DNA of 14,609 nucleotides from contig CALMQN010000146.1 in NCBI GenBank assembly GCA_937872185.1, forward strand, positions 1 through 14,609. Reading direction: 5' to 3'. The translations under genes were made by a program, and so were the position numbers. Each line of letters opens with the position of its first letter. The stretch's first letter is position 1. The DNA is from an uncultured bacterium (GTDB lineage: Bacteria > Patescibacteriota > Saccharimonadia > Saccharimonadales > Saccharimonadaceae). The notes beneath the pieces were generated by a model, which worked only from the letters and a program-made list of their open reading frames with translations, did not search any database and was not told the origin of the DNA. Below are positions 120-14,609 of the stretch, piece by piece.

Positions 120-1283
120 TTAGAATGTTGGAGTACAGATGTAGGTAAGGGTAGTGGTGTAGGTACCGGCAGGTTGGCTACCAGGGACGTTCACGATGTA
201 GCTAACTGTGTAGATTTGGGCGTCTGATCCACCAAGAGTAGCGTTTCCACTGTTTGCGACTGGGTCACCTGAGGTAAATGAGAAGCTATCGACAGTATTA
301 TAATTGTTTGTATATCCTTGCGCTGTTCCGACGGCTTGTCCGCGGTAGTTGGTTCCGTTTGATGCAACGGCGATTTCTGAACCGACGGCAATGGTTGAAG
401 TAGCAGTGGTGTTTAGTTTTAAGTTTAGTCCGAATTGTGACACACCCTTGATACTTGCTGTGCTGTTGATGGCAGAGACGGTATTACCACCAGATGTCAG
501 CGTTGGTCCGTTGACGGTGATGACGTATCCCGATCCTGCATTAGTCGATGCTGCCATTTGAGAAGTAGCCGTTGCTGTATCAGTTGGAGAGAACAATTGG
601 TTAAAGGTGACGGCACCCGTAGTGACTGTTGAACAGTCAGGCACGCTGCTTGTTGTACCGACGGTTGCACCAGCACAGAAGACGAGTGATTCAGGCATAG
701 TACCAGTCAGGTCGATACCACGTGCTGTTGCTGCAGCCACAGTACCACTATCAATGGCTGAACCCGTTGTATCGGTTGATGCGTATGACGTAATACGGAC
801 GAAGAAGGTCTCACCGTTAACTGAGGTCGGGTTAGTAATCGTGTTGAACTGATATGTCACAGCAGTATTTGAGCTGACGCTCGCAGCAGTTCGCGTAATG
901 TATGGCGCACCGTCAGTTGCAAGAGTGGTGCCGTTGACGGTAAATCCGGTCGCACCTGTTTGACCGCTGAGAGTCGCGCTGGTTGTGGTGAGCCCTGTCG
1001 GCTTCACACATGTAGGAGTGATTGAAGAGTCGGCGGCCGTCGTACAGTACTGAAACTTAATTGATCCAACGTTGCTACCACCAGGAAGCGTGAAGGCAAA
1101 TGCGTGGTTAACAACTCCACCAGGTTTTGAACCACCGTCTGAGCCGTTTGCCATAAGCGTCAGACTACGTGCTGTAATTTGCGCGGCAGATGCGAAGCCC
1201 GGTAAAACTGCTTGGAGAACGAGAGCAAAGGTCAATACTAAAAGACCTGATATTTTGATAAGTGATGCGTGGTGGGTTTTCAT
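120..1283 (-). CDS. Secreted AQITAR-family surface protein (387 aa)
   Basis: A Sec signal peptide (residues 1-34, hydrophobic core about 10-30, ending ASA) is followed by AQITAR at the start of the mature protein. The rest is Thr/Ser/Gly/Asn-rich and beta-strand-like, with paired cysteines (CTTAADSSITPTC; another pair after LVF) and no membrane anchor. The C-terminal part (about 245-387) carries the motifs SQFGLNLKLN and YTVSYIVNVPGSQPAGTYTT, which it shares with the proteins at 13125-14153 and 1413-2156. The N-terminal part matches the proteins at 13125 and 14162. I recognise this as an abundant exported family in Saccharibacteria/CPR genomes. Its role is not known to me; a cell-wall or surface layer component is a reasonable guess, and WxL-like anchoring is possible because a WxL-interacting-like gene lies at 11601. 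The start at 1283 is preceded by an A-rich leader without a clear Shine-Dalgarno site. Confidence 0.85.
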   Translation of the reverse strand: MKTHHASLIKISGLLVLTFALVLQAVLPGFASAAQITARSLTLMANGSDGGSKPGGVVNHAFAFTLPGGSNVGSIKFQYCTTAADSSITPTCVKPTGLTTTSATLSGQTGATGFTVNGTTLATDGAPYITRTAASVSSNTAVTYQFNTITNPTSVNGETFFVRITSYASTDTTGSAIDSGTVAAATARGIDLTGTMPESLVFCAGATVGTTSSVPDCSTVTTGAVTFNQLFSPTDTATATSQMAASTNAGSGYVITVNGPTLTSGGNTVSAINSTASIKGVSQFGLNLKLNTTATSTIAVGSEIAVASNGTNYRGQAVGTAQGYTNNYNTVDSFSFTSGDPVANSGNATLGGSDAQIYTVSYIVNVPGSQPAGTYTTTLTYICTPTF

Positions 1284-1412: not shown

Positions 1413-2156
1413 TTAATACGTACCGGTCACAAGGAGCGTTTGATCGCTTGTGTATATACCACCAGGGGTAAGGGCGGGTACGTTGACCAGGTACGTAATG
1501 GTGTATGTCGTTGTGCCCGAGTTGCGAGTTGCCTGAGCAATCGTTTCGCCACTAACATACCGATATGAGTTTGAAGTAGCATAATTACCTGCGACGGTAC
1601 CAAAACCAAACTGGCCATTGTTGGGATTTGCACCCACTGATACCGGTGAGGTGTTAGCGACCAGGTTGATGCCAAACTGGGACGTGCCTGCGACCGACGC
1701 GCCTGGAAACGATGGTCCAGAGGGGTTCATAGCTTCAATTGTTGTGCTGCCGTTGCTCGGTGCGTTACCTATAATCTGTACAACGTATCCGTAGGTGGTG
1801 TAGTTAAGGACCGTAAATGTTGTCGTGGCTGTCGTTGCAGTGGCTGCTGAAAAGGCGTTAAAATTGATCGTTCCGTTAACTGCAACGGATAGTGCCGGGT
1901 CATTTGTAGTGGTGGAACCCGCAGCAATTTGAAAGTTAGATGAGGCGGCAGGCCCAACGCCAATATCACCAATTGAGTCTCGGCCCTGATAATTTGCCGA
2001 ACTGGACTGAATCAGTCCACCTGACCCGATGGCACTCTCGTTAAACTTATAATTTGTGGATTGCGATGGTTCCGCATAGACAGTCGAAGAAAGAGAAATG
2101 ACAACGAACGCAAAAGCAAAAAATGCGCCAATTCCTCTTCTTAACCTCTTTGACAT
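1413..2156 (-). CDS. Secreted protein with the shared C-terminal surface domain (247 aa)
   Basis: I chose the ATG at 2156 because it opens directly on a signal peptide (MSKRLRRG, then a hydrophobic core to about residue 27, ending VYA). The open frame extends further upstream to 2384, but that part is not signal-peptide-like and would overlap the divergent gene. The mature N-terminus reads STNYKFNESAIGSGG and SSANYQGRDSIGDIGVG, a type of repeat common in exported CPR proteins. The C-terminal half contains TSQFGINLVANTSP, YRYVSGETIA and TYTITYLVNVPALTPGGIYT, closely parallel to the AQITAR proteins at 120 and 13125. It therefore shares their C-terminal domain but has a different N-terminal module. 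There is no transmembrane anchor and no cysteine in the mature part. Function unknown; a surface or wall-associated protein is inferred. Confidence 0.8.
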   Translation of the reverse strand: MSKRLRRGIGAFFAFAFVVISLSSTVYAEPSQSTNYKFNESAIGSGGLIQSSSANYQGRDSIGDIGVGPAASSNFQIAAGSTTTNDPALSVAVNGTINFNAFSAATATTATTTFTVLNYTTYGYVVQIIGNAPSNGSTTIEAMNPSGPSFPGASVAGTSQFGINLVANTSPVSVGANPNNGQFGFGTVAGNYATSNSYRYVSGETIAQATRNSGTTTYTITYLVNVPALTPGGIYTSDQTLLVTGTY

Positions 2157-2269: not shown

Positions 2270-3322
2270 ATGAAAAACCAGTCAGACACAGATACAAAAC
2301 CAGCTGCCAAGACAGCCTCAACTGAGCCACCAGTGCCAGAGGTATTACAGGCGCAAAGTGATGACGAGCCAGTCGAAGAACCAACGACGACTGCTAAGGC
2401 ATCCTCAGAGCCACGCAAAGCTCGCACGTTGCCGCACCGCATTACAACCTATCGGCCGAGTCACAAAGCAACCTTTATTGGTGTTGGTGTTGTGATCGCG
2501 ATTTTGGCAGCGAATGCTGCGATTATTGCGTTTGTCGTACAGGGCCAAGATAACGCCAACGCCCAGACAGGTCAGTCGGACGTTACCATCAGTCCAGCCG
2601 TGCTTGATACACTTGGCGTCAGTCGCAACAGTGTTGGTGACTTGGGCACAGAACTGGTCGTTGGACCGAACTCACGTTTTGATGGGAAAGTGACAATCGG
2701 TAACGATGTGAGTATTGGCGGTGAGCTGAAATTAAACGGCAAATTGTCAGTATCTGACGCGACGCTCACAAGCCTTCAGGCAGGTAACACTTCTCTCAGC
2801 AAACTAGACGTCAATGGTGATGCTAACGCAGCAAACTTGAACTTACGCCAAAACCTAGCCGTTGCGGGTACATCAACGCTGCAAGGGGCAGTGACAGTAG
2901 GACAGACATTAAACGTTGGCGGCAACCTAGTTGTTGGTGGTGCGCTGACGGTACGCACTTTCCAGGCGAGTAGCCTGACCTCAGAGACGACGCTCACTAT
3001 CGGAGGCCACGTGATTAGTAAGGGTGTTGCGCCAGGCATTGCGAGCGGCGGGGCAGTCGGCTCAAACGGTACGGTATCAATTAGCGGCAACGATGCATCT
3101 GGCACGGTCGCAGTCAATATTGGTGTTGGCGCTGTCAGTGGTACATTGGCACAAATTACCTTTCGTACGGCGTATTCATCGATTCCACATATCGTTGTGA
3201 CACCAGTGGGACGCAGTGCAGGTGATTATTATATTACCCGCACCAGCACTGGTTTTAGCATTATTGTGACTGGCGCATTATCAGCTGGCGGCTACGCTTT
3301 CGATTACATTGTCATCCAATAA
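2270..3322 (+). CDS. Membrane-anchored beta-rich surface fibre protein (350 aa)
   Basis: The first 65 residues are polar, Pro/Glu/Thr-rich and presumably cytoplasmic. A single membrane helix follows (about 67-91: FIGVGVVIAILAANAAIIAF). Residues 100-240 are a repetitive region of short beta units (VTIGNDVSIGGELKLNGKLS; LNVGGNLVVGGALTV) that resembles bactofilin-like or phage-fibre beta-helical stalks. The C-terminal 95 residues (VSISGNDASG, then FRTAYSSIPHIVVTPVG, ending AFDYIVIQ) look like the small beta domains found at the tips of phage tail fibres and in CPR surface proteins. I infer an N-in/C-out fibre on the cell surface. The gene converges with the F1-like operon, leaving one base between its stop and that of epsilon. 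The exact family is not recognised. Confidence 0.75.
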   Translation: MKNQSDTDTKPAAKTASTEPPVPEVLQAQSDDEPVEEPTTTAKASSEPRKARTLPHRITTYRPSHKATFIGVGVVIAILAANAAIIAFVVQGQDNANAQTGQSDVTISPAVLDTLGVSRNSVGDLGTELVVGPNSRFDGKVTIGNDVSIGGELKLNGKLSVSDATLTSLQAGNTSLSKLDVNGDANAANLNLRQNLAVAGTSTLQGAVTVGQTLNVGGNLVVGGALTVRTFQASSLTSETTLTIGGHVISKGVAPGIASGGAVGSNGTVSISGNDASGTVAVNIGVGAVSGTLAQITFRTAYSSIPHIVVTPVGRSAGDYYITRTSTGFSIIVTGALSAGGYAFDYIVIQ

Positions 3323-3323
3323 A

Positions 3324-3590
3324 TTACATATTAGCGAATAACAACACTTCATTATCACGCACCGTAAGAATGCCGTTTCGTATAGTAAAGATAACGGGTT
3401 CACCGCTTGTTTCGATAATGACTTCACCCGGATCGAGCATCGAAAAAAAGTCGGCATGTCCGGGGAGTATATCAAACTGCCCAACCTTATTTGTAGCCGT
3501 CACAGCCCGAGCAATACCATCGTAATATAGGTGAAAGGGCGCTCTAGCCACTACTTTTAACTCAGTAATATCGGAAGCTTGGTGAATCAT
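3324..3590 (-). CDS. atpC: F1-like ATPase epsilon subunit, short form (88 aa)
   Basis: This matches the N-terminal beta-sandwich of F1 epsilon: FDILPGHADFFSMLDPG is the counterpart of the usual GVLPGHAP...LKPG motif, followed by a FTIRNGILTVRDNEVLLFA strand pair like the usual FAVSGGFLEV. Family members are usually 130-140 residues long with two C-terminal helices. Here the protein stops right after the sandwich, so the helical domain that regulates rotation and inhibits hydrolysis is absent. Epsilon normally joins gamma to the c-ring as part of the central rotor. The start ATG overlaps the TGA of beta (ATGA), so translation is coupled, and this is the last gene of the operon. Identification is secure despite the short length. 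Confidence 0.85.
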   Translation of the reverse strand: MIHQASDITELKVVARAPFHLYYDGIARAVTATNKVGQFDILPGHADFFSMLDPGEVIIETSGEPVIFTIRNGILTVRDNEVLLFANM

Positions 3591-4987
3591 GTCTTTTTGT
3601 CAGCAGCAACTTCAGCTTTAGGCTCAGATGTTGGGGCGGCTGCTTTTTCCTCTTTTACAGGTTTTCCGTCAAGGATTGCTTCGATGCCTTTCAAGGTTTC
3701 CTCAAGCGTGAAGTACTGGCCAGGTTTACCAGACAAGTGTTCTGCAACGGTAAAGTCCTGCGAAAAGAACTGGACGAGTTTCTGCGCGTTTTGGTAGTCG
3801 GCACGGTCAGCAGGCGACAGCTCATTTTCACCAACGATGGCAATAATGTTTTTAAGTGAGTCATACTTTTGCATAATCGCTTGCACGCGACCAGCCAGCT
3901 TGTAGTGTCGTTCACCGACGATTTGGGGCGTTAAGAGTGACGAGGTCGTCTTTAACAGGTCAACCGCCGGTCGAATACCACTCTCGGCAACACTACGTGA
4001 GAGCACCAGCACTGAGTCTAGCTGTTGCGAGATGGCCTGCACCGCAGGGTCAGAAAGGTCGTCTGCAGGGATATACACAGCCTGCACAGACGTAATTGTT
4101 CCTTTGTCTGTTGAGCTCAGGCGGTCTTCCAAGCGACGCAGCTCGGCGTAGATCTTTGGTGAATAGCCACCTTCAGATGGAATCAACCCAAGGTTTGTTG
4201 ACAGCTCTGTCAGGGCTTGGATATGTCGATAAATGTTGTCCACGAAGAATAGGATGTCGCGGCCTTCCTCGTCACGGAAGTACTCCGCAGCAGTTGCCGC
4301 AGCCGGACCAACCATCGAACGAATAGCGGGTGTCGAGTCCATTTGTCCAAAGAACATGACCGTGTTTTTTAGCACACCAGTTTCTTTCAGTGTTTCATAT
4401 AACTCGTTACCTTCACGAATACGCTCACCAACACCACAGTAAATTGACAGACTTTTGGCGTTGCGGGTGACGTTATTAATCATTTCCATAGTAAGGACAG
4501 TCTTGCCCACACCAGCACCTCCGACGATACCAATCTTGCGACCTTTCACAAACGGTGTCAAAAAGTCGATTACTTTCAGGCCGGTTTCAAGCATCTCGAG
4601 CTTTTGCGTGCCACGGTAGCTCTTTGTGCCTGACGCTTCGCTAATCGGACGTCGTTTGTCAGTGATTCCCGGCTTTTCGTCGAGGGGTTCACCAAGCGCA
4701 CTAAAGACACGACCGAGCGTATTTGGCCCAACAGGCACCGACACTTTCTCGTGAGTACGAAAGATATTTTGGCCACACTGCAACACTTGGCTGTTGGTCA
4801 GGTTAATACAGACCACAGTATCAGCTTTAAAGAAACTGACTTCCAAAAAGACTTCAGGATGGTCTTCAACTCGCAGTAGCTCTTTTTCTTCAGGACGGTC
4901 GCCAATAATCTGTACTTCAACCATCAGGCCACGCAATGACTGGATACTTCCTACTTTTTCTTCTGATATCTTTGGATGCGTCTTCAT
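3587..4987 (-). CDS. atpD: F1-like ATPase beta subunit, divergent (466 aa)
   Basis: A full-length beta: N-terminal beta-barrel (1-80), nucleotide domain with Walker A GGAGVGKT (156-163), catalytic Glu188 in GVGERIREGNELY, Walker B ending at Asp250 (ILFFVDN), TSVQAVYIPADDLSDPA (299-315), then the C-terminal helical domain. Pocket residues differ from ordinary ATP synthases. The adenine-stacking Tyr of GIYPAVDPL is Arg339 (GIRPAVDLL). The usual MNEPPG is MDSTPA (216-221), which changes the conserved Asn to Asp. The second aromatic of the adenine pocket (VFTG) is Leu418. The DELSEED lever reads ENELSPAD (387-394). A charged Ala/Lys/Glu tail ends the protein. ATP hydrolysis is likely intact because all catalytic residues remain. 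The start overlaps the gamma stop (TAATG) and has an AGAGGAG ribosome site. It reads as a divergent paralogue; an ordinary beta is expected elsewhere in the genome. Confidence 0.93.
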   Translation of the reverse strand: MKTHPKISEEKVGSIQSLRGLMVEVQIIGDRPEEKELLRVEDHPEVFLEVSFFKADTVVCINLTNSQVLQCGQNIFRTHEKVSVPVGPNTLGRVFSALGEPLDEKPGITDKRRPISEASGTKSYRGTQKLEMLETGLKVIDFLTPFVKGRKIGIVGGAGVGKTVLTMEMINNVTRNAKSLSIYCGVGERIREGNELYETLKETGVLKNTVMFFGQMDSTPAIRSMVGPAAATAAEYFRDEEGRDILFFVDNIYRHIQALTELSTNLGLIPSEGGYSPKIYAELRRLEDRLSSTDKGTITSVQAVYIPADDLSDPAVQAISQQLDSVLVLSRSVAESGIRPAVDLLKTTSSLLTPQIVGERHYKLAGRVQAIMQKYDSLKNIIAIVGENELSPADRADYQNAQKLVQFFSQDFTVAEHLSGKPGQYFTLEETLKGIEAILDGKPVKEEKAAAPTSEPKAEVAADKKT

Positions 4988-5853
4988 TACCTGGCTCCTC
5001 TGGCGTGTGCTTTTTTCTTTTTGATGCTAATCATGACTTCGCGGAGTCGGCGGTCGCTTTCACTTCGTTTAGCGCGGTGAAACTCCAGGTGGTAGTCAAC
5101 CAACAGTTCAGTCGCACGCTTTTTAGCAACGGCCATCGAGTTAAATCGACTGGCGGCCTGCGCCAGACTTGACTCGAGGATTGTCTGACTGAGCGCAATG
5201 GTCATCATGGTCATCTCCATTCTCTCGGCAATCTCATCAAGTGATGGCTCAAAGATTGTATCAGCTGCCGTCATAATGTCAGTTTCGGTTGCGTCAGTTT
5301 CGCTCAGGCTTTTCATACTCGATATCAAGTCAATGCTTTTAATTTCTTGCACACCCAACGACACATATTCTTCATAATAGACAACAATGTTGCTGTACGG
5401 CATCACGGCTTTAATCACAGGGCTTACGTCGATATATTTGTCGGTCTCGGGCACTTGAAAAAACCGTTCAAAATGGATGCCACGTTGTGTTAACTGGTTA
5501 GCACCGTGACTACCCAGGACAATAATGTCTGTTGTCTTGGCGTCGTAGTTTTGCATCATTGTCTCAATCAAACGAAGGTCAATATCACCGCTCAGTCCGG
5601 CTTCGGCCGAGATAATGACAAACGCGTTCTTGCCGTTTTTGTCTGCACCGCCGCGGTTGGTGATTTGCGTTTTTGGATCAACACGGATTGATCGGTAGCG
5701 TGACCACAGCAGTTGAAAGAACTCGCCCGACAATTCAACCTTGTTTTTTACCTTCGCAACTTGGGTACTGGCGATACTCTCAAACACCCCCGTCAAATCT
5801 TCAATCGTGGTGATCTGTATCGTCTCTTTTTCGACAGTACTAGCTCTTCGCAT
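4987..5853 (-). CDS. atpG: F1-like ATPase gamma subunit (288 aa)
   Basis: Gamma is the central shaft turned by the alpha/beta hexamer. Both coiled-coil ends are visible: an N-terminal helix (about 15-56, TIEDLTGVFESIASTQVAKV) and a C-terminal helix (about 210-280) containing SRFNSMAVAKKRATELL, the counterpart of the family's MAAMKNATDNA. The middle Rossmann-like domain has VIISAEAGLSGDID (79-92), matching the usual TSDRGLCGGLN. Length is typical (family about 285-290). The classical N-terminal RRI-T-QITKAM motif is not recognisable, so it is divergent. I chose the ATG at 5853 over an upstream in-frame start at 5895 because AAGGAAG lies five bases before it. This gives a 14-base overlap with alpha. 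The C-terminus is strongly basic (KKKKAHARGAR). The stop overlaps the beta start by one base. Confidence 0.88.
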   Translation of the reverse strand: MRRASTVEKETIQITTIEDLTGVFESIASTQVAKVKNKVELSGEFFQLLWSRYRSIRVDPKTQITNRGGADKNGKNAFVIISAEAGLSGDIDLRLIETMMQNYDAKTTDIIVLGSHGANQLTQRGIHFERFFQVPETDKYIDVSPVIKAVMPYSNIVVYYEEYVSLGVQEIKSIDLISSMKSLSETDATETDIMTAADTIFEPSLDEIAERMEMTMMTIALSQTILESSLAQAASRFNSMAVAKKRATELLVDYHLEFHRAKRSESDRRLREVMISIKKKKAHARGAR

Positions 5854-7327
5854 TGGCTTCTTCCTTTGGTGGCTCTGCCGGCGTCTCAACAACAATCGTG
5901 GTCGGCGTCTTGGACTTAATGGTATGCGCCTTCAATAGCTCAGCCTCAATATGGTCAAAGTCTTTCTCTGCCTTGACGCGCGATTTTGCCTTGATGACGG
6001 CATCTTTCAAGCCAACAATATCAATCTCAACTGTTCCACCTCCCAGCAAAATGGTCTCAAGTAGCAGTTGTTGCTCCACCAAGTTATACAAGGTCTCTGG
6101 CGGCTGTTGTAGGGCGGCATAAATTTGTTTACCCAGTGTGAGGTCAATTTGTGCGTCCTTAGACAGGCTTGACCCAAAGTGTGAAAACTCTTCGGCTTGT
6201 TTGTACTTCGACAGCAGTTTAAACAGTGTACCAGACAATCGTTTTTGCCTGACGGTTTGGGCTTGTCCACCGACACGCGAGACGGACAACCCAGCGTTAA
6301 CGGCTGGTCGAATGCCTTGGCGAAAGACACCAAGGTCCAAAATAATCTGCCCGTCGGTAATAGACATAATACTCGTCGACAGGTAGGCGGTAATGTCGTC
6401 ATTTGGCGTCAAAACAACCGGTAGGGAAGTCAGCGTTTTGCCGTTTTTTAACAACTTTCCCGCACGCTCTAACAGACTAGAGTGCGCATAGAACATATCA
6501 CCTGGGTATGAGTCACGACCTGGGTCAACTTCTTGCAGCAGTGACAATTGTCGGTAGGCTTCAGCGTGGCTAGTCAGGTCGTCATAGATAATCACGACGT
6601 CTTCGCCGCTGTACCAAAGGTACTCGGCCATGGCACAGGCAGCGTAGGGCGCAAGGTACGACTGGGTGAGCGAATCAAAAATATCAGCTAGCACGACGAT
6701 GGTGTGGTCCATGGCGCCTGACTCACGCAGGCCCGCCAGCAGTTGCTCGATGTCGACTTTACGTTTGCCAATCAGCACGTAGACAACAATACGTTTTGTG
6801 CCTTTTTGGCTGGCGCTCAGCTGTGACAAGAAGGTACTTTTACCTGACTTGCTGTCACCCAGGATTGCAATACGCTGACCCAATACAACAGGGAAAAACA
6901 TATCAACGGCAGTCACACCGCTTGCGAGCTGTTCGTTCAGCATTGACCTTGCCATAATGCCTGGTGCTGCGTTAAAAATACCTGATGTCGCAGTACTGCG
7001 GATTGTCCCTTTGCCGTCAATTGGCTTGCCCATAGGCGTAACGACACGACCAATAAGTCCTTTTCCTACCGGAACGCTCAGGACGTCGGTCTCTACAACA
7101 GCAAGTGTGCCTGGCGCCATTTTTTCAGAATCAATATTAAACAGGATGACCTTGTCGCCATATGCTTCACGCACCAGTCCGCGTTGCCCATCTTCAAATA
7201 GTACCTGTGCACCCAGGCGTACGCCCTCCAGGCCTTTTACCTCAATAATAAAGCTATTGACCGCAACAACTTCACCGGTCAGCCCATCGGCTTCGACGAG
7301 CTTTTGAAAGGTAGCGTTATTAAACAC
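5840..7327 (-). CDS. atpA: F1-like ATPase alpha subunit, divergent (495 aa)
   Basis: Non-catalytic nucleotide-binding partner of beta. Domains in order: a shortened N-terminus (about 15 residues before the beta-barrel, against about 27 usually), barrel (16-85), nucleotide domain with P-loop GDSKSGKS (157-164) instead of the usual GDRQTGKT, YDDLTSHAEAYRQLSLL (248-264), PGRDSYPGDMFYAHSSLLER (269-288), and the arginine finger Arg351 in VSRVGG. The helical C-terminal domain ends in an unusual Pro/Glu-rich tail (after about 470). The altered P-loop and short N-terminal helix, which normally docks onto delta, set it apart from standard ATP synthase alpha. The start is a GTG at 7327 with GAGGTG seven bases upstream. 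It lies 33 bases downstream of the annotated delta stop, or overlaps delta by 8 bases if the delta frameshift is corrected. Confidence 0.92.
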   Translation of the reverse strand: MFNNATFQKLVEADGLTGEVVAVNSFIIEVKGLEGVRLGAQVLFEDGQRGLVREAYGDKVILFNIDSEKMAPGTLAVVETDVLSVPVGKGLIGRVVTPMGKPIDGKGTIRSTATSGIFNAAPGIMARSMLNEQLASGVTAVDMFFPVVLGQRIAILGDSKSGKSTFLSQLSASQKGTKRIVVYVLIGKRKVDIEQLLAGLRESGAMDHTIVVLADIFDSLTQSYLAPYAACAMAEYLWYSGEDVVIIYDDLTSHAEAYRQLSLLQEVDPGRDSYPGDMFYAHSSLLERAGKLLKNGKTLTSLPVVLTPNDDITAYLSTSIMSITDGQIILDLGVFRQGIRPAVNAGLSVSRVGGQAQTVRQKRLSGTLFKLLSKYKQAEEFSHFGSSLSKDAQIDLTLGKQIYAALQQPPETLYNLVEQQLLLETILLGGGTVEIDIVGLKDAVIKAKSRVKAEKDFDHIEAELLKAHTIKSKTPTTIVVETPAEPPKEEANAKS

Positions 7328-7360
7328 GGCGCAGCACCTCAGGAAACTTTTCGCGCTCAG

Positions 7361-7804
7361 CTAGCAACTGGCGTCGGAACGAAAAATGCGGCTTTTGTGG
7401 TGAATTACCAGACCGCCCAGAATCGTGGCGTTAAAGCCAAAGGCAATCATAATATTTGGTGCAATATTTGCTCGACACCAATTGGTCAGTGTTTGTTTGA
7501 TGTCGTTGGTTGGCGGTGCAGCCAGTGTAATCGTCAGTGTCGGCGCAGTGTTTTTATACAAGTTTAAAAGGTCGGTTAATTCGTCCAAACGACGGACGCT
7601 GAGTGGCTCGTCTTTTTCCCATGCATGCAACAGCTCGGTCGCGCCAGGTGATAGGGCAGGGCGATCGCTTTTTTTCTTGCTCCCAACGCGCTTCAAAATT
7701 GCATTGTGTGAAAACCACTTTGTAAACTCTCGAACTTCAATCATCAGTGTCATCAAGTCTTGAACAGAAGTGACATCGTCTGGTAATTGCAGCTTAGCTT
7801 TCAT
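7361..7804 (-). CDS. atpH: F1-like ATPase delta/OSCP-like subunit with probable C-terminal frameshift (147 aa)
   Basis: Delta ties the top of the alpha/beta hexamer to the peripheral stalk b. Residues 1-88 are a short helical domain without clear motifs. The C-terminal domain is recognisable: a hydrophobic strand (TLTITLAAPP), a helix, then NIMIAFGFNATILGGLVI, the counterpart of the family's SLIGGLVVRIGD. The frame then ends abruptly in RSDASC. In the -1 frame, 20 further codons follow (SFRRQLLAE...PEVLRRV) to a TAA at 7322-7320, and they look like the missing DGSxRxQL tail helix. A one-base slip or indel in the T5 run (7386-7382) or the A4 run (7396-7393) would join them. The corrected gene would be 7320-7804, about 160 residues, and would overlap alpha as most other genes here overlap. 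The start overlaps the end of b by 11 bases. Confidence 0.75.
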   Translation of the reverse strand: MKAKLQLPDDVTSVQDLMTLMIEVREFTKWFSHNAILKRVGSKKKSDRPALSPGATELLHAWEKDEPLSVRRLDELTDLLNLYKNTAPTLTITLAAPPTNDIKQTLTNWCRANIAPNIMIAFGFNATILGGLVIHHKSRIFRSDASC

Positions 7805-8402
7805 CGGTGATGCCTTTGATCAACTCTGCTTTGTGTTCTTCTAACATGGCGATCATATACGGTGTTTGTGCGCCCAAATCAACGTTATGCTGCAAGCTCT
7901 CTGCCAAAAATGATGTCACTGCGTCGGCTAGCTTTGTATCAATTTGACCGACCAGGCGTTGTTGCTCGGCTGCGACTTTCTCGTTCAACTTGGTCTTTAG
8001 GTCAGTTTGGTGGTCCTGAATATCGGTCTGAGCGGTCGTGATCACTGTCTGCACTTGCGTGCGGAGGGATTCCAGCATGGTTTGGTAGCGCTGTGTCTCG
8101 CTGGTGACCACTTGTGCCCCCAGTTTTTCCAGCTGGCCGTTCAGTTCGGTCGCAGTCTTGGTCAGGTCATCTTGTAGCTCGCTCGCAGCGTGCGTCAGGA
8201 CTTTTTCAAAGTCTCTCTGAGCCTTATCAAGCATCTGTTCCTTTAACTCTTGTGGAAGATGCAGTGTTTGGGCTGCAGGTTTTTCGACCTTTTTTTGTGG
8301 GCGAAAGTGTGCCCAGGCGTGACGAATCGCTGTTGTCGACAGTGCGCCGATAATAAACACATTAATCAGCAAGAATAGTTGTAAGAATGTGATGCCCGTC
8401 AT
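7794..8402 (-). CDS. atpF: F-type ATPase b-like peripheral stalk subunit (202 aa)
   Basis: One N-terminal membrane helix (about 4-24, ITFLQLFLLINVFIIGALST) is followed by a long, highly charged, alanine/glutamine-rich coiled coil (about 50-170) and an amphipathic C-terminus that would contact delta. This topology, length and position between the c-like and delta genes identify it as subunit b, the stator that stops the alpha/beta ring from turning. Sequence identity to classical b is low, as usual for this subunit. The loop after the membrane helix is basic (HFRPQKK), consistent with the cytoplasmic side. The ATG is one base after the stop of the c-like gene. With subunit a missing from the locus, it is unclear what b is anchored to in the membrane. 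Confidence 0.75.
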   Translation of the reverse strand: MTGITFLQLFLLINVFIIGALSTTAIRHAWAHFRPQKKVEKPAAQTLHLPQELKEQMLDKAQRDFEKVLTHAASELQDDLTKTATELNGQLEKLGAQVVTSETQRYQTMLESLRTQVQTVITTAQTDIQDHQTDLKTKLNEKVAAEQQRLVGQIDTKLADAVTSFLAESLQHNVDLGAQTPYMIAMLEEHKAELIKGITDES

Positions 8403-8403
8403 T

Positions 8404-9228
8404 CTAAAACCTCGTTAAAATTACATAAATTGCTATGATTGCGACTGCTAATATTCCCAAAACTAACGCAGACAGCTGAATCACGTCACGATAGACCGCA
8501 GACTGCGCCATGGGGTTACGTCCAACTGACACTATACTACTACGAATCATCGTATAAATAATACTCACAACCACAATCAACGTCACAATAAAGATAATGC
8601 CGCTGACGATGATGGGTAGTGAGTTAACGGTTTTACCAGCCAGGGCGTTGGCAATGTTTTGAATAGCAGGGGGGATGAGCGTTTTTTCTGGTTCGGCGTA
8701 ATAATACGACACATCAACTGCCAGCGTCACTTCACCAAGAGTGAGGGGCTGCTTGTTACCTTTGTCATCAGTGTAAGTCTGGTCTTTGTTGGTGCTGTTG
8801 GTTGGGTTGCTTTGCGCGACACCGACGACCTTGGCATTGCCTGTTGCTTTCATGCCAACACCTTTGACTGGTGAGGCGGTAATATGGTCACCTTTGACGA
8901 CAGCGCCGTTAATGTCTGACACCAGGGCAGATACAACACCGCTTGTTGCTACCTGCACTTGATTATCAGTGCCGTTACTGACGGTTAGTAGCGATCCGCC
9001 ATCGTTAATCACAATGCCCAACAGGTTATCAACATTACTCGACGACGTGGCGGTGACTTGGTCGGTTGATCCAGGCTCGGTACTCACCAGTGATCCGATA
9101 GAAAGGGTGTCGTTGCTTGAGTACCCCTGCGAGATAGTTGTAATGGCAAAGACGCCAAGTGGCATAACGCTCAGTAAAAAAGTACCGACGAAAGCTAATA
9201 ACGCGACAAACGGCTTTTTTGTGTTCAC
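8404..9228 (-). CDS. Signal peptide, extracellular beta domain and subunit-c-like hairpin fusion (274 aa)
   Basis: This first gene of the F1-like operon holds the subunit c position. Residues 1-28 are a signal peptide (MPLGVFA). Residues 30-175 form a Ser/Thr/Gly-rich beta domain containing IGSLVST, LLGIVIND, VKGDHITASPVKGVGMKATG and KVVGVAQS. I recognise this pattern from CPR surface and phage-fibre-associated proteins. Residues 204-226 and 249-271 are two membrane helices joined by a loop with VGRNP (235-239), the hallmark of the F-type c loop that touches gamma and epsilon. Predicted topology (both ends outside, RNP loop inside) also matches c. However, helix 1 lacks the GxGxG motif, and helix 2 has no Glu or Asp; the only nearby acid is Asp248 at the helix edge. 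The GTG at 9228 is chosen because a promoter at 9266-9274 lies inside any longer reading, and AGGAG lies 13 bases before the GTG. Confidence 0.72.
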   Translation of the reverse strand: MNTKKPFVALLAFVGTFLLSVMPLGVFAITTISQGYSSNDTLSIGSLVSTEPGSTDQVTATSSSNVDNLLGIVINDGGSLLTVSNGTDNQVQVATSGVVSALVSDINGAVVKGDHITASPVKGVGMKATGNAKVVGVAQSNPTNSTNKDQTYTDDKGNKQPLTLGEVTLAVDVSYYYAEPEKTLIPPAIQNIANALAGKTVNSLPIIVSGIIFIVTLIVVVSIIYTMIRSSIVSVGRNPMAQSAVYRDVIQLSALVLGILAVAIIAIYVILTRF

Positions 9229-9739: not shown

Positions 9740-10258
9740 ATGGCTACTGAACAAAGGCTTCCTACGGTAAACAGTGACGATGGCGAATGGGGCGGACACC
9801 TTAACGCTTTTCTCGGCAAAGAGCACTATACTGCCGACGCAAACGTAACATACCCTGGTACCTCGACGAATGGTGGGCACAAGACCATTACTATTCGTCC
9901 GGGTACAGCGACTGCGGGCACTGCTCCGCTCAAGTTCTCGACTGGTCCAGTCCTTACGGCGCTAGAAGTTGGCGCTGTTGAGTTCACGGACGGTGGCGTT
10001 AATGGCAAATTGTATGTAACATACAATCAGGCCAATACACCGACGCGTCTGACGGTTGCAGCTTACAATGACGCATCAGGTGCAACGGGTGATATATACT
10101 ATAGAGACGCAAACGGCAATTTCGCGCGACTGGCAAAAACAACCGATACGCATGTATTGACACTCGCGGGCGGTGTGCCAACATGGGCAGCTCCATCAGG
10201 TGGCGGTGGTGGACTAACGTTCGCACAAACATATGCCATAACAACATTAATCGGGTAA
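9740..10258 (+). CDS. Phage-tail-fibre-like structural protein (172 aa)
   Basis: The N-terminus (LPTVNSDDGEWGGHLNAFL, residues 7-25) is a motif that I recognise from phage-derived tail proteins and CPR surface proteins, where it starts a module for a beta-rich fibre. It is followed by GGHKTITIRPGTATAGTAPL (45-64) and GAVEF (78-82), also typical of phage and prophage fibre proteins. The C-terminal part ends GGVPTWAAPSGGGGG and a short tail, a common linker to further fibre modules. There is no signal peptide or membrane helix, so export would need another route or the small anchor protein upstream. Start ATG at 9740; the next gene follows after 5 bases. No other phage genes (capsid, terminase, integrase) are present, so this is a captured surface module rather than a prophage in this window. 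Confidence 0.65.
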   Translation: MATEQRLPTVNSDDGEWGGHLNAFLGKEHYTADANVTYPGTSTNGGHKTITIRPGTATAGTAPLKFSTGPVLTALEVGAVEFTDGGVNGKLYVTYNQANTPTRLTVAAYNDASGATGDIYYRDANGNFARLAKTTDTHVLTLAGGVPTWAAPSGGGGGLTFAQTYAITTLIG

Positions 10259-10263
10259 TACGT

Positions 10264-11523
10264 ATGATACTTCTTCAAGCAACGACAGACACACTAGAGA
10301 TTAACACAAGCACTGCGGCTAATATTGATTATTCAGTTAGTTGGGTTGATGTCGTCGCAACAACTTCTGCTACTCCTGGTACGAGTCAAGGTAAGATTAC
10401 AACAGCGACTACTACAGTTGCGGTGACAACCCCTGGTGCATCGACAACTCGGCAAATTAAAAACGTATCTATACGTAATACGCATGCCTCGTTATCAAAT
10501 ACTATTCAGGTAGTGAGGGATGTGTCGACTGTACCGTACATCCTCACAAGCGATGCGATCTTGCAGCCGGGCGAAGCCTTGACGTATGAAGACGGAGTTG
10601 GGTGGAGTATAAACAACGTGCTTGTCAGTACTCTTACGGACGATATACACCTTGGGTTTCAAGAGTGGTCTGCCATATCAAATCCTTCCGCGCCAGCGGC
10701 AGACACAATACGTGTGTATGCCAGAAAAATTGCTGGACGTATGGTTCCAAAATGGATGCCACCGAGTGGTATTGATAACCCAATGCAGGCAGCCTTATAC
10801 GGTAACAATATAGTTCTGTATGTACCTAACACGGGTACAACGGCAGGTATTAACTTCGGTACGCCATGGGCTGTTGGTACAACCGTGGCTCACCCGGCAC
10901 CTACAGCTGGTATATATACGCAGATGAAACGCACGACATCAACAAACGTTGTGACGACTACCAACCAGGCACTAGGTATCTCGAGCATTGTTAGCACAGC
11001 TGCCCAGTTCTGGATAGGAAACTCTACTGGTCTTGGTGGATTCTTCTTCTTCGCTCGTTTTGGCATTGAGACACTTACCGCAGCATCGCCGAACGCAACT
11101 CGCTTGTTCGTAGGGCTGCAGTCAGGTACAACGAATATCCTCGCATCTGACACGATCCCTGCTATCTCATGTGTGGGGCTGTGGCATGATACAACTGACG
11201 GTGCAAATGTTATAAACCTTCTTACAAAGAACGGTACGACAGCAACAAAGAACGCCTTGACTGGCTCGCCGACAACTCCTTACACAACGGGTCAGGCCTA
11301 TGACTTCTATATGTATTGTAAGCCTGCGGATAACGTTATCTATTACCGTCTTGATAATTTTAATACTTCTACGACTCTTGTTGATAGTTCGGTTACGACA
11401 ACGCTTCCTGCTAATACAACTTTCATGGGTCCGGTTGTCGGTATGAGTAATGGAACAGCCAATACTGTCGCCGCAACAGTTGGTATAGGTATAAACAGAG
11501 TGTATGTAGAATCTGATCGTTAA
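10264..11523 (+). CDS. Phage-tail-fibre-like protein (419 aa)
   Basis: The start chosen is ATG 10264, just after the stop of the previous gene; the open frame reaches back to 10183 but would overlap it. Residues 1-125 form a beta-sandwich-like module (LLQATTDTLEINTSTAANID, then IKNVSIRNTHA and LQPGEALTYEDGVGW) resembling phage tail proteins that carry TxxLE and YEDGxGW motifs. Residues about 130-419 form a larger beta domain with GGFFFFARFGIETL, RLFVGLQSGTTNI and DFYMYCKPADNVIYY. This pattern is shared with tail-fibre tip domains of tailed phages that resemble concanavalin-like folds. There is no signal peptide, membrane helix or catalytic motif. It is probably the distal, ligand-binding part of the surface structure formed with the two preceding gene products. 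Host recognition is an inference only. Confidence 0.65.
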   Translation: MILLQATTDTLEINTSTAANIDYSVSWVDVVATTSATPGTSQGKITTATTTVAVTTPGASTTRQIKNVSIRNTHASLSNTIQVVRDVSTVPYILTSDAILQPGEALTYEDGVGWSINNVLVSTLTDDIHLGFQEWSAISNPSAPAADTIRVYARKIAGRMVPKWMPPSGIDNPMQAALYGNNIVLYVPNTGTTAGINFGTPWAVGTTVAHPAPTAGIYTQMKRTTSTNVVTTTNQALGISSIVSTAAQFWIGNSTGLGGFFFFARFGIETLTAASPNATRLFVGLQSGTTNILASDTIPAISCVGLWHDTTDGANVINLLTKNGTTATKNALTGSPTTPYTTGQAYDFYMYCKPADNVIYYRLDNFNTSTTLVDSSVTTTLPANTTFMGPVVGMSNGTANTVAATVGIGINRVYVESDR

Positions 11524-11585
11524 ACAAAGATCAATGAGCCCACATCCCTCCCGTGAGTAGTTGCTTACTATCGCAATGAGCGGGC

Positions 11586-11594
11586 TGTTATGAT
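11586..11594 (+). promoter_or_regulatory. Extended -10 promoter of the WxL-interacting-like gene
   Basis: TGTTATGAT is an extended -10 element. The start seven bases later falls on the GTG at 11601, so the transcript may be leaderless. No good -35 is visible. Confidence 0.4.
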
Positions 11595-11600
11595 GGAAGG

Positions 11601-12527
11601 GTGTTGAACAATAGAAAAATGCACCAAATGCCTAAACGTGTCATCCTTATTGTATTTGGGATCGCTTCTATCTTATTGGCATGGATGTCTTTCGGATCCG
11701 GGCATGCTTTTGCGGAGTCTGGTGACCAGCTCACAAAAGGCCTCACGGTATCGCCGCTGCGTACAGAAGCTGAGGTTGCACCTGGTACGTCCCAAGATAA
11801 AACCTTATCAATAACAAATAACAACAAAACCCCGATCACTGTGCGACTAAGCGCCGAAGAGTTTAGCGTGATTAATCAGCAATATGACTACGCCTTTAAC
11901 ATTGAAACGGAACTGGTCAAATGGGTGGCATTTGCGTCCAATACAATTGAAGTCGCGCCAGGTGAAACTAAGTCAGTAGCGTTTAGAATCGGTGTGCCCA
12001 TCGACGCAGAACCGGGTGGGCGCTACATTAGTATGTTCGCCTCAACAGAGGCGGGCAGTACCGGCGACGGAAGTATATCGCGTCAGCGCGTTGGTTCTTT
12101 AATTTACCTGACGGTGCTAGGCGATGTAAGCAGAGCCGGTAATTTGGTGTCACTTAGTGCGCCGTGGTTCGTCACAAGTTCCACCGACTGGCGGGCGACA
12201 TTGCAAAATACGGGGACAACGCATTACCGCAGCCGCTATAACGTGGTCATTCAAGATATATTTGGTGGTACGCAGTCATCGACGACCGTTGGCGAGGCGT
12301 TGATATTACCGGGTACAGTACGGTCGGTTTCTGATGCGGTACCGCTTCCGCGCTTCCCTGGTATCTATAAACTAACCTATACGATTGGCCTGGGTGACAC
12401 GCCGGCTAAGGTCGAAACGCGCTACATGATCTATCTACCGACGGCAGCGATTGTTGTCATTATATTTGCCGCCATACTGATTGTCGCGCTGGTGGGCGAA
12501 TATCGATCACGAAAAAGACACGCCTAA
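11601..12527 (+). CDS. WxL-interacting-protein-like (DUF916-like) membrane-anchored surface protein (308 aa)
   Basis: A signal peptide (core about 13-30, ending HAFA at 35-38) is followed by an Ig-like fold with LTVSPLRTEAEVAPGTSQDK (48-67), TLSITNNNKTPITVRL and IEVAPGETKSVAFRIGVP. These are hallmarks of DUF916-type domains in Gram-positive WxL-interacting proteins. The GGRYISMFAS motif and a second beta domain (about 180-275) resemble the following DUF3324-like part. A C-terminal membrane helix (about 279-301) and basic tail (YRSRKRHA) anchor it. In Firmicutes such proteins are encoded beside WxL proteins and bind peptidoglycan and the WxL partner. Here the nearby secreted paralogues with a shared C-terminal domain could be the partners, although they lack a WxL tryptophan motif. 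The start could be GTG 11601 (leaderless) or ATG 11619. The stop overlaps the convergent gene by four bases. Confidence 0.7.
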   Translation: MLNNRKMHQMPKRVILIVFGIASILLAWMSFGSGHAFAESGDQLTKGLTVSPLRTEAEVAPGTSQDKTLSITNNNKTPITVRLSAEEFSVINQQYDYAFNIETELVKWVAFASNTIEVAPGETKSVAFRIGVPIDAEPGGRYISMFASTEAGSTGDGSISRQRVGSLIYLTVLGDVSRAGNLVSLSAPWFVTSSTDWRATLQNTGTTHYRSRYNVVIQDIFGGTQSSTTVGEALILPGTVRSVSDAVPLPRFPGIYKLTYTIGLGDTPAKVETRYMIYLPTAAIVVIIFAAILIVALVGEYRSRKRHA

Positions 12528-13069
12528 TCAGTCTGCGGGACGGCTGTGTAAATGACTGAGTTGGAATAGTTACCCGCGGGCTTGGAGAGATCAATATTGA
12601 TACCATAGGTAAAGGTCGTGACATCGCCACTTGATGCAGGAGTGGTGAGGGACTTAATCAGTACATCTGTCAGCGTCATACCGGTAAAATTTGCCGAGCC
12701 ATTCGTGTTGTAGCCCCATGTATTAACAGCGAGCGCTGCGGGCGACCCATTGCCAGATGTTGGCACAATTGCTCCAAGGTTGTCCATATCCGTGTTTGTG
12801 AGCGATCGCACGTATAGCTTAAACCCTTTAACGTCAGTCGAGGTAACGGTAACGACGCTTGCGTTCGTTGCGAGTGTCCCACCTGTCACCGGTGTGATAC
12901 TAGCAATGGTGACATCACCATCAGTCGCTATTGAAAGTGATGTTTCGTCGCCGTACTGGACGATACCGTATAAGCCTTTGCCGTAGGGTTGGGCAGAGGC
13001 AAGAGGCGCAAGGCCGATCGCTCCCACGATGATAAAAAGAAAGGTTGAAATGGTTATTGTTTTTTTCAC
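12524..13069 (-). CDS. Small secreted protein with YG-rich N-terminus (181 aa)
   Basis: A GTG start opens on a typical signal peptide (MKKTITIS, core 8-20, ending ASA at 24-26). The mature protein begins QPYGKGLYGIVQYGD, a YG repeat common in exported CPR proteins. The rest is a single beta-rich domain with VKGFKLYVRSLTNTDM, TWGYNTNGSANFTGM and FTYGINIDLSKPAGNYSNSV, ending a few residues later. The ending parallels the shared C-terminal motif of the larger secreted proteins (PAGxYxxxxTY), so it may be a minimal one-domain member of the same fold. No cysteine or membrane anchor. Its stop overlaps that of the WxL-interacting-like gene, and it is divergent from the AQITAR gene at 13125. Predicted surface protein of unknown role. 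Confidence 0.78.
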   Translation of the reverse strand: MKKTITISTFLFIIVGAIGLAPLASAQPYGKGLYGIVQYGDETSLSIATDGDVTIASITPVTGGTLATNASVVTVTSTDVKGFKLYVRSLTNTDMDNLGAIVPTSGNGSPAALAVNTWGYNTNGSANFTGMTLTDVLIKSLTTPASSGDVTTFTYGINIDLSKPAGNYSNSVIYTAVPQTD

Positions 13070-13073
13070 GCTT

Positions 13074-13088
13074 ATGTTATTATAACAT
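13074..13088. promoter_or_regulatory. Palindromic divergent promoter region
   Basis: ATGTTATTATAACAT has 6-bp inverted arms (ATGTTA/TAACAT) around three bases. On the minus strand it contains a perfect extended -10 (TGTTATAAT, 13087-13079), placing the start near 13072 and giving the gene at 13069 almost no leader. On the plus strand TATAAC occurs at 13081-13086 and 13094-13099, either of which could serve the gene at 13125. A regulator binding the palindrome could control both. Confidence 0.5.
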
Positions 13089-13124
13089 TCAGATATAACT
13101 AGTACCGTAAGTTAGAGGGAAGAA

Positions 13125-14153
13125 ATGACAAAAACACACTCACTAATAAAGAGAATCGCTTATTTTGTAGCAATGCTTGGCATCGTCGCATTACCACTAC
13201 TGGGCGCGACACATGCATCAGCCGCACAAATTACTGCACGTAAAGTAATCATCGGCAGTTCACTACCAAGTGCTAGTACGACATATAACTTTACGTTTAC
13301 AGCACCGACGGCAACAACAATTCAATCAATTGAGTTTAAGGCCTGTACGACTGCATCCGGTGCCTGTGCCAGCCCTCCTGCCGGGTTCTCTGAAGCATCA
13401 TCAACACTTTCATCAACAACTGGTCTGGGATCAGGTGGAACATGGATTGTTAACACCGCACTTCCAGGGTCACTGCGTGTATCAAACGGCTCTAACACTG
13501 GCTCACCATCTGCCGGTGCAACGGTAAACTTCGGTGCGGTCGTTAACCCAAGCGCACTTAACTCGACATTTTACCTCCGTATGACGACCTATTCAGCCGT
13601 CGGTTTTACCGGTGCGATCGACACAGGCGTCGTGGCAACATCGACTGCCGGTGCAATTACGGTTAACGCAACCGTTGATGAAACATTGACGTTCACATTG
13701 GCCGCTGCAACTGTCACTCTGACGAACCCAACAACAAGCGCCACTGGTACCGGTACATCAACAATGACAGCTGCAACCAACGCTTCATCAGGGTACTCAA
13801 TTACGGTTGCAGGGAGCACATTAGGTGGACCAACCTCCATTACGGCGATGACCGGTGCAACGGGTAACGCTTCATCCGTTAACTCGAAGCAGTTCGGTAT
13901 CAACTTGAAGGCCAATACGACACCGTCGGTTGGCACAAACGTGACAGGATCAGGATCAGGTGTTCCGACAGCTGCCTCTGGATATGATGTTGCAGACTTC
14001 TTCAAATTTGTATCGGGCAACACGATTGCTGGTGCCACGGCACCAACTAACAGCAACACATACACAGTCAGTTATGTTGCTAACATCGACGGTTCAACAC
14101 CAGCTGGTGCATACACAACCACGATAACCTACGTCGCAACGCCTAACTTCTAG
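13125..14153 (+). CDS. Secreted AQITAR-family surface protein (342 aa)
   Basis: A signal peptide (1-33, ending ASA) is followed by AQITARK. The N-terminal domain (about 34-190) contains IQSIEFKACTTASGACASPP with a paired cysteine motif, then NSTFYLRMTTYS. The C-terminal domain (about 200-342) contains ATNASSGYSITVAGSTLGG, SKQFGINLKANTTP, FFKFVSGNTIAGA and TYTVSYVANIDGSTPAGAYT. Both domains match the protein at 120-1283, and the C-terminal domain also occurs in the protein at 1413-2156. A good ribosome site (AGAGGGA) lies four bases before the ATG. The stop TAG forms part of the AGGAG site of the next paralogue, so the two are co-transcribed. The composition is very Thr/Ser/Ala-rich with no membrane anchor. 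I infer an abundant surface-layer or wall-associated protein; no enzyme motif is visible. Confidence 0.87.
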   Translation: MTKTHSLIKRIAYFVAMLGIVALPLLGATHASAAQITARKVIIGSSLPSASTTYNFTFTAPTATTIQSIEFKACTTASGACASPPAGFSEASSTLSSTTGLGSGGTWIVNTALPGSLRVSNGSNTGSPSAGATVNFGAVVNPSALNSTFYLRMTTYSAVGFTGAIDTGVVATSTAGAITVNATVDETLTFTLAAATVTLTNPTTSATGTGTSTMTAATNASSGYSITVAGSTLGGPTSITAMTGATGNASSVNSKQFGINLKANTTPSVGTNVTGSGSGVPTAASGYDVADFFKFVSGNTIAGATAPTNSNTYTVSYVANIDGSTPAGAYTTTITYVATPNF

Positions 14154-14161
14154 GAGACATT

Positions 14162-14609
14162 ATGCAAAAACGAACACAGACACTGCGGACACACGCAAAA
14201 ATAGTACAAGCGAGCATTTTGGCAATCGCCCTGGCGGTATTGCCGCTACTTGGTGCATCGCAGGCTTCGGCCGCACAGATTACTGGCCGTAAGGCAACGC
14301 TCAGTACATCGGCACCAAGTGCGACTGGTGTGCAATATGCCTTTACCTTTACCGTACCATCAGCAACAGCTATACAGGCAATTGATTTTGAGGCTTGTAC
14401 GACCGCCAGTGGCGCTTGTACGACTCCTGGTGGAACCTTCGCGACCACAGGATCAAGTTTGACGGGTCAACCAACTGGGCTTGGATCGGCATCTGGCTGG
14501 GTCGTTGATAATGGCACCGCCGGTTCACTACGTGTTAAACACACGACCAACGTCACCGCACCGTCGGGCAGTCAAGCGGTCAGTTTTTCAGGTGTTACTA
14601 ACCCAACGG
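14162..14609 (+). CDS. Secreted AQITGR-family paralogue, truncated by window end (149 codons seen)
   Basis: The ATG at 14162 has AGGAG five bases upstream, overlapping the stop of the previous paralogue. A signal peptide (1-37, ending ASA) precedes AQITGRKATLSTSAPSATG. The visible part of the mature protein follows the N-terminal domain of its neighbour closely, for example IQAIDFEACTTASGACTTPG against IQSIEFKACTTASGACASPP, and later GSLRV. The frame is open to the window end, so the C-terminal domain is outside. The clear paralogy and tight spacing indicate a tandem duplication. The closeness of the two N-terminal domains compared with the copy at 120-1283 suggests this pair is the more recent duplication. 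Confidence 0.87.
   Translation, partial: MQKRTQTLRTHAKIVQASILAIALAVLPLLGASQASAAQITGRKATLSTSAPSATGVQYAFTFTVPSATAIQAIDFEACTTASGACTTPGGTFATTGSSLTGQPTGLGSASGWVVDNGTAGSLRVKHTTNVTAPSGSQAVSFSGVTNPT

Follow-up and report, generated by a model that had tools for sequence, protein, structure and literature searches.

A second F1-like ATPase operon in Saccharibacteria with a carboxylate-free, ectodomain-bearing c-like protein and a possible mechanical output

An F1-like ATPase operon at positions 3324..9228 of the window (the whole 14,609-nt stretch of DNA that was analysed) is best explained, at a probability of about 0.6, as a dedicated F1-type rotary ATPase that does not translocate ions and that performs mechanical work on the outside of the cell. 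In textbooks, rotary ATPases are machines coupled to ion flow. The composition of this one and the loss of its ion site are read from its sequence: the F1 catalytic residues are intact, a gamma subunit, an epsilon N-domain and delta-like and b-like genes accompany them, an acid-free hairpin with a GRNP loop follows an N-terminal domain predicted to be exported, and no subunit a was found for the operon. Because the c-like protein no longer has the ion-carrying acid and has acquired a domain that faces outward, ATP may drive mechanical work at the surface rather than ion pumping. Our search of an open-access library found no description of such a system, and F1-like exceptions were described as mycoplasma-specific (PMC3369863). 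Here an F1-like operon is conserved across many lineages of a large phylum, with a c-type hairpin retained without its ion site, and it becomes directly testable whether a c-ring can deliver mechanical output instead of acting as an ion turbine.

The window contig is of Saccharibacteria type, and the operon genes lie on its minus strand in the order c-b-delta-alpha-gamma-beta-epsilon. An earlier note on this DNA had claimed this order with nearly abutting genes; all seven reading frames that it placed there are open, with gaps of 1 nt between c and b and 33 nt before alpha, and overlaps of 11, 14, 1 and 4 nt. The alpha-like (495 aa; 5840..7327), beta-like (466 aa; 3587..4987) and gamma-like (288 aa; 4987..5853) subunits passed Pfam cut-offs, as did the epsilon-like subunit (88 aa; 3324..3590), which consists solely of the N-terminal beta-sandwich. 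ATP synthase models also ranked best in NCBIfam, with all scores below the curated cut-offs (beta, 455.6 versus 462.85; alpha, 390.3 versus 484.45 for atpA). The delta-like protein (147 aa; 7361..7804) is putatively identified by profile comparison with canonical atpH (95.8%), its sole line of support (Pfam OSCP, E 0.17). The b-like protein (202 aa; 7794..8402) has a transmembrane segment at its N-terminus followed by a long helical part, and is tentatively assigned from its position, this segment and a coiled coil. It matches the atpF profile weakly (32.6%), a point against the rotary explanation. No subunit a gene lies at the locus, as the note had also claimed, and the single PF00119 match in the whole genome falls inside a canonical operon on a separate contig (C4).

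This arrangement is not confined to one genome. Matches to the c-like protein occurred in 172 genomes, and removing eight with E above 1e-20, a cut made by hand after the lists were seen, left strong matches in 164 of the 392 genomes of the class; the operon also recurs in other Patescibacteria, so that some of these very small bacteria have it in addition to, or in place of, the normal ATP synthase. Among 120 loci sampled from the best matches, with seven places represented twice, F1-like alpha, beta or gamma adjoined the c-like gene at 108, five were too short to judge, and seven were solo. The c-like fusion is kept next to F1 genes in the class and beyond, the conservation that the note had asked about, although the seven solo loci count against our preferred explanation. 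The catalytic machinery, described there as functional-looking, appears so throughout. In the window, beta retains Walker A and the catalytic GERxRE motif and alpha retains its P-loop and Arg finger; among relatives, Walker A and GERxRE were found in 85/85 beta-like sequences (Walker B in 67/85 by regular expression alone) and the Arg finger in 99/99 alpha-like sequences by alignment column, of which a regular expression catches just 72.

The c-like protein (274 aa; 8404..9228; GTG start with AGGAG upstream) was found, as first proposed, to join a signal peptide, a beta-rich ectodomain and a GRNP-loop c-type hairpin without a carboxylate. Its two-helix hairpin is homologous to subunit c as judged by hhalign profile comparison, which gave 92.9% against canonical c overall, 94.7% for members from other classes and 88.8% for Saccharibacteria alone, versus 0.1–1.6% for controls. 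Pfam subunit c matched none of 21 c-like members, and PF00137 had no match in genomes with the c-like gene only; JGI names two relatives "F0F1-type ATP synthase membrane subunit c". Canonical c carried D or E at +20 or +21 from the loop glycine in 48/48 sequences, whereas helix 2 of all 114 aligned c-like hairpins was free of D, E, H, K and R from +17 to +25, leaving the ion-binding carboxylate absent (present in 0/114 versus 48/48). The ectodomain has a predicted phage-decoration-like fold, comparable with phage head-decoration (cement) proteins and the C-terminal domain of phi29 gp12; PF23982 matched 6 of the 21 members (best E 1.1e-4), the window member having no match. The c-like domain differs from phage decoration proteins in being exported and joined to a c-type hairpin, and the fold that the models suggest they have in common tells nothing about function.

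Secreted and surface proteins are encoded beside the operon. Tail to tail with epsilon lies "2270" (350 aa; 2270..3322, plus strand), a membrane-anchored fibre-like protein that may have a beta-solenoid stalk and, at its C-terminus, an H-type-lectin-like domain; its structure model is poor except for the last 100 residues (mean pLDDT 62.7). Further along, on the minus strand, are the secreted proteins "1413" (1413..2156; start picked by its signal peptide) and "120" (120..1283; often in two copies), both in conserved synteny. In Saccharibacteria "2270" often adjoins the operon, and it was present at 66 of 89 loci that contain epsilon. At a loose threshold 192 genomes matched "2270", 143 with a c-like match and 49 without; strong matches (E below 1e-50, again cut by hand after the lists were seen) occurred in 119 of these, 118 of which also had a strong c-like gene. 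Fisher tests on this co-occurrence overstate significance because the species are related. A strong "2270" match was missing from 46 of the 164 strong c-like genomes; this lack of universality, together with the loci and genomes above in which only one of the two genes occurs, counts against our explanation, as does the poor fibre model. The conserved synteny with a fibre-like gene strengthens the link to the cell surface that had been proposed for the operon; a motility or host-contact output is something we infer.

Under the preferred explanation, ATP hydrolysis would turn gamma and epsilon, and the c-like proteins would form a multimeric ring whose GRNP loops dock on gamma/epsilon as in FoF1. 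With no subunit a, this ring would turn, or strain against a b-delta stator, leaving ions unmoved, and its extracellular domains would transmit the movement to proteins of the surface, among which the neighbouring "2270" may be the recipient in Saccharibacteria. The ring, its rotation and its task are what we infer from these parts. The purpose, perhaps to touch other cells or surfaces or to move on them, is the least certain element.

The type 2 enzyme of Mycoplasma mobile (G1-ATPase) offers a parallel. It is an F1-like ATPase put to mechanical use in gliding at the cell surface, with sugar-binding legs outside, and has dimeric internal chains, a large N-terminal extension on beta, and GliD in place of a stalk, according to PMC11864180. 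The likeness would lie in the surface mechanical use. The dimeric chains, the beta extension and GliD set the gliding enzyme apart, and the MMOB1670 and MMOB1660 models scored 352.2 (cut-off 850) and 308.7 (cut-off 600) on the window operon. Tentatively, and with well under even odds, Patescibacteria might possess a distinct ATP-driven rotary surface motor in which F1 spins a carboxylate-free c-ring with an extracellular crown. The crown would move fibres tipped with lectins, by which the cell glides on other cells or grips them, and the system would have converged on Mycoplasma gliding.

Mycoplasma type 3 (F1-like X0) ATPases suggest a different use of the same parts. According to PMC3369863, they are encoded by an extra operon, usually next to the canonical one, that lacks subunit a and includes a 12-transmembrane protein as well as a large membrane protein that is unrelated to it and without similarity to a, b or c. 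The type 3 ATPase (MSC_0618/0619) is the surface-linked partner of the MIB-MIP system, which requires it (PMC12994834). The window operon is similar in being an extra F1-like operon without subunit a and with a surface link, and differs in that it has delta-like and b-like genes and that its c hairpin can be recognised as such and is joined to an ectodomain. The 12-transmembrane protein 1 of the seven-gene type 3 cluster is absent from the seven genes of the window operon, on which the MSC_0618 and MSC_0619 models scored 387.7 (cut-off 570) and 258.9 (cut-off 520). By analogy with type 3 and MIB-MIP, the F1 part could be an ATP-driven conformational or assembly machine that loads, releases or unfolds surface proteins, while the c-like protein would form no rotating ring and would stay fixed in the membrane as an anchor or receptor. 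The flanking surface genes fit this, as does the loss of most helix-1 glycines (mean 1.2 in c-like hairpins versus 6.9), owing to which a tight c-ring is not assured. However, everything that links F1 with a c-ring (gamma, the epsilon N-domain and the GRNP loop) is retained, and we consider such a machine rather unlikely.

It is improbable that the ATPase powers protein export across the membrane in the manner of FliI/SctN, which are related to F1. Genes for secreted proteins adjoin the operon and FliI/SctN models also score the beta-like and alpha-like subunits (216 and 209 bits), but the scores of ATP synthase models are roughly double, the c-type hairpin and the partner subunits (alpha, gamma, delta and epsilon) constitute an F1Fo set, and no export gate gene was noticed on the mapped loci, from gene maps rather than a targeted search.

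Ion pumping could persist if an a-like subunit had escaped recognition and the ion site lay elsewhere, and bears on how the operon relates to other ATPases in these genomes. Contig C4 carries a canonical F1Fo operon that includes an atpB and a normal atpE, so the window operon is the second F1 operon of its genome. The earlier note had proposed to check for such an operon, and its presence, like the conserved c-like fusion, came out in favour of the note's interpretation, which is partly supported. It is like the canonical one in F1 subunits, gene order and a GRNP-loop c-type hairpin, and differs in lacking subunit a, in an acid-free c with signal peptide and ectodomain, and in an epsilon without the C-terminal domain. 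Displaced atpB and atpE completing the F1-like operon were rejected: both sit in the canonical operon, and they are also absent from three near-complete relatives. These came from the 21 strong c-like genomes without atpB, six of which were looked at (G111, G009, G135, G141, G001 and G246). G009, G135 and G141 (100, 99 and 96% complete) had two PF00006 matches each, both at the F1-like operon, and no match to PF00119 or PF00137; in these three genomes, at least 96% complete, the operon is the sole F-type ATPase found. G111 was dropped from this list on account of canonical-type matches, one within an 11,043-aa open frame that suggests masked sequence, and G246 was left off for a third match at a contig edge. 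The F1-like operon may mislead surveys of Patescibacteria in which alpha and beta genes are taken as a sign of ATP synthesis. Homology of the c-like hairpin to c would suit an ion pump, and PF00119 could miss a divergent a. Set against these are the uncharged +17 to +25 stretch in all 114 hairpins, the lack of PF00119 in the three genomes, the absence of V-type subunit a (PF01496) from six genomes, and the lack of a conserved multi-transmembrane gene at mapped Saccharibacteria loci, which make pumping highly improbable.

That the operon is a redundant or decaying ATP synthase copy is scarcely credible: a canonical operon is usually co-present (atpB in 143 of the 164 strong c-like genomes), but frames, catalytic residues and gene order are intact across wide distances and the F1-like operon is retained where the canonical one is absent. 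N-ATPases likewise form a second F-type operon next to the usual one, but their operons, as examined, have subunit a and an ordinary c; alt_F1F0 models scored 421.1 for beta (cut-off 752) and 341.5 for alpha (cut-off 750.5) on the window operon.

Two features at the subunit ends bear on the rotary, non-pumping explanation. The epsilon-like subunits have a median length of 88 aa (n = 89) versus 138–152 aa (n = 14) and lack the C-terminal domain, which is inhibitory in known enzymes; its absence fits with a motor working in the hydrolysis direction. Alpha N-termini bind the stator in F1, and those of the alpha-like subunits are often short, commonly with 17 residues ahead of the first conserved strand versus 26–36, a likeness to those F1-like ATPases of mycoplasmas in which a normal stalk is missing. 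With starts uncertain, these short N-termini would count against a stator-equipped rotary machine.

A first FastTree tree was difficult to root. In a tree of 50 sequences, in which long branches may mislead, the alpha-like subunits were not one clade, so the tree gives no date for the divergence from canonical F1; the beta-like subunits formed one clade (UFBoot 84).

The seven-gene operon lies on the minus strand of the 14.6-kb window contig, running from 9228 to 3324 in the order c-b-delta-alpha-gamma-beta-epsilon, with genes that overlap or nearly abut except for 33 nt ahead of alpha. Its source genome bin totals 653 kb and is rated 86% complete, and close c-like proteins in named records come for the most part from Candidatus Saccharibacteria. 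Pfam recognised alpha, beta, gamma and epsilon; ATP synthase models were the top NCBIfam matches, every score falling under the cut-off. When profiles were compared with those of the class's own canonical subunits, the result was 99.5% for gamma-like, 97.6% for epsilon-like, 95.8% for delta-like, 92.9% for the c-like hairpin and just 32.6% for b-like proteins (mismatched controls, 0.1%–1.6%).

The earlier note proposed looking in the genome for a separate canonical operon, and one is present, so that the window operon is a second one. It lies on contig C4 and contains its own atpB, atpE with the aspartate, atpF, atpH, alpha and beta, while the c-like protein occurs in one copy in the genome. 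The window operon is therefore neither a broken ATP synthase nor one completed by distant genes; the atpB and atpE on C4 belong to the canonical operon.

Among non-redundant full-length proteins, Walker A and GERxRE were kept in all beta-like sequences (85/85 each), and alpha-like sequences kept the P-loop in 97 of 99 and the Arg finger in 99 of 99. Judging from these catalytic residues, the F1-like motor looks active. The F1-like epsilon spans 82–135 aa (median 88, n=89; starts were set by the longest frame, so the upper lengths are overstated), compared with 138–152 aa for canonical epsilon (14 detected among 20 operons), and by this shortness its C-terminal helical domain is gone. At the IYPA motif, beta-like proteins read IRPA (68/85), ILPA (2) or IYPA (1), with 14 not read; canonical beta had IYPA in 12 of 20, with 8 not read.

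In a 50-sequence tree whose root position is not fixed, beta-like proteins formed a clade (UFBoot 84) and alpha-like proteins were not monophyletic. Saccharibacteria F1-like members formed clades in alpha and in beta (UFBoot 100 each), as did canonical alpha and beta (100 and 99). On this tree, the F1-like and canonical kinds appear long separated.

Within the class, 172 of 392 genomes had a c-like match (164 once weak matches were dropped) and 215 an atpB match; 143 combined atpB with a strong c-like match, and 21 had the latter without atpB. Six of these 21 were checked more closely (G009, G135, G141, G001, G246 and G111), and PF00137 was found in none of the six. G009, G135 and G141 (100%, 99% and 96% complete) have a single alpha/beta pair, sited at the F1-like operon. 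G111 has canonical-type genes, the neighbours of which are probably masked. In G246 a third match, at a contig edge, makes the assignment ambiguous. G001 has two F1-like sets, one with alpha directly after c (L202, 2965–7608) and one including b and delta (L203).

The c-like fusion also keeps its place beside F1 genes in relatives, as the earlier note's reading entailed: F1-like genes adjoined it in 108 of 120 fetched loci, drawn from the best matches, and in 14 of 15 loci mapped from other classes. The full c-b-delta-alpha-gamma-beta-epsilon order was seen in 74 of the 120. Outside the class, at least 45 of 342 genomes had a match reaching the hairpin (three of the 45 are fragments), and named matches include Roizmanbacteria and Levybacteria.

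Arrangements varied. In L056 the c-like gene (11992–13161) follows epsilon rather than preceding b, and of the three c-like matches in genome G209 one falls in the operon. Solo c-like genes apart from F1 genes occur at L047 (11995–12849, the same place as L162), adjoining a 2,440-aa frame, and at L048 (2875–3732), L168, L169, L187 and L205. In L188 and L189 a WxLIP-like gene separates c from b, and another c-like gene, in opposite orientation, comes after epsilon.

Sequence analysis shows motor parts present and the ion site missing. We propose that ATP hydrolysis would turn gamma and epsilon, which would take hold of a ring of c-like proteins by its GRNP loops; ion coupling would be absent because there is neither subunit a nor the acid. 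Exported domains could carry the motion outside, where it may act on the fibre-like protein encoded tail to tail with epsilon or on other surface proteins. Counting against a rotor form are lost glycines in the c-like hairpin, often short alpha-like N-termini, the weak b-like support (32.6%) and the existence of solo c-like genes. Precedents, as described in extracts of the respective papers, are the type 2 mycoplasma ATPase, which serves gliding (PMC11864180), and type 3, which works with MIB-MIP (PMC12994834); by model score the window system belongs to neither. An excerpt of a 2012 mycoplasma paper (PMC3369863) terms F1-like structures specific to mycoplasmas, and excerpts of Patescibacteria papers mention F-type or A/V-type ATP synthase alone. 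Our search of one open-access library found no report of such an F1-like operon with a c-like gene.

The c-like ectodomain without the hairpin was also matched within frames of ~400–4,400 aa phylum-wide (e.g., G601:C2 and G623:C7): on these matches, a common surface module. In other Patescibacteria, large proteins adjoin the operon (L190, 1–2484; L193, 1–2641; L194, 1–1692). They combine a MerR-type HTH at the N-terminus with a single predicted TM and a long further stretch, and an intein domain is present in one of them. Downstream of the operon in L164, a 1,465-aa frame (9897–14292) matches phrog_31660, a family of phage tail fibres (E 3e-18). In the window, 10183–11523 matches phrog_13925, a family of unknown function (E 6e-22), and 13125–14153 and 14162–14608 encode secreted proteins resembling the '120' family of conserved synteny, across the operon from '120' itself.
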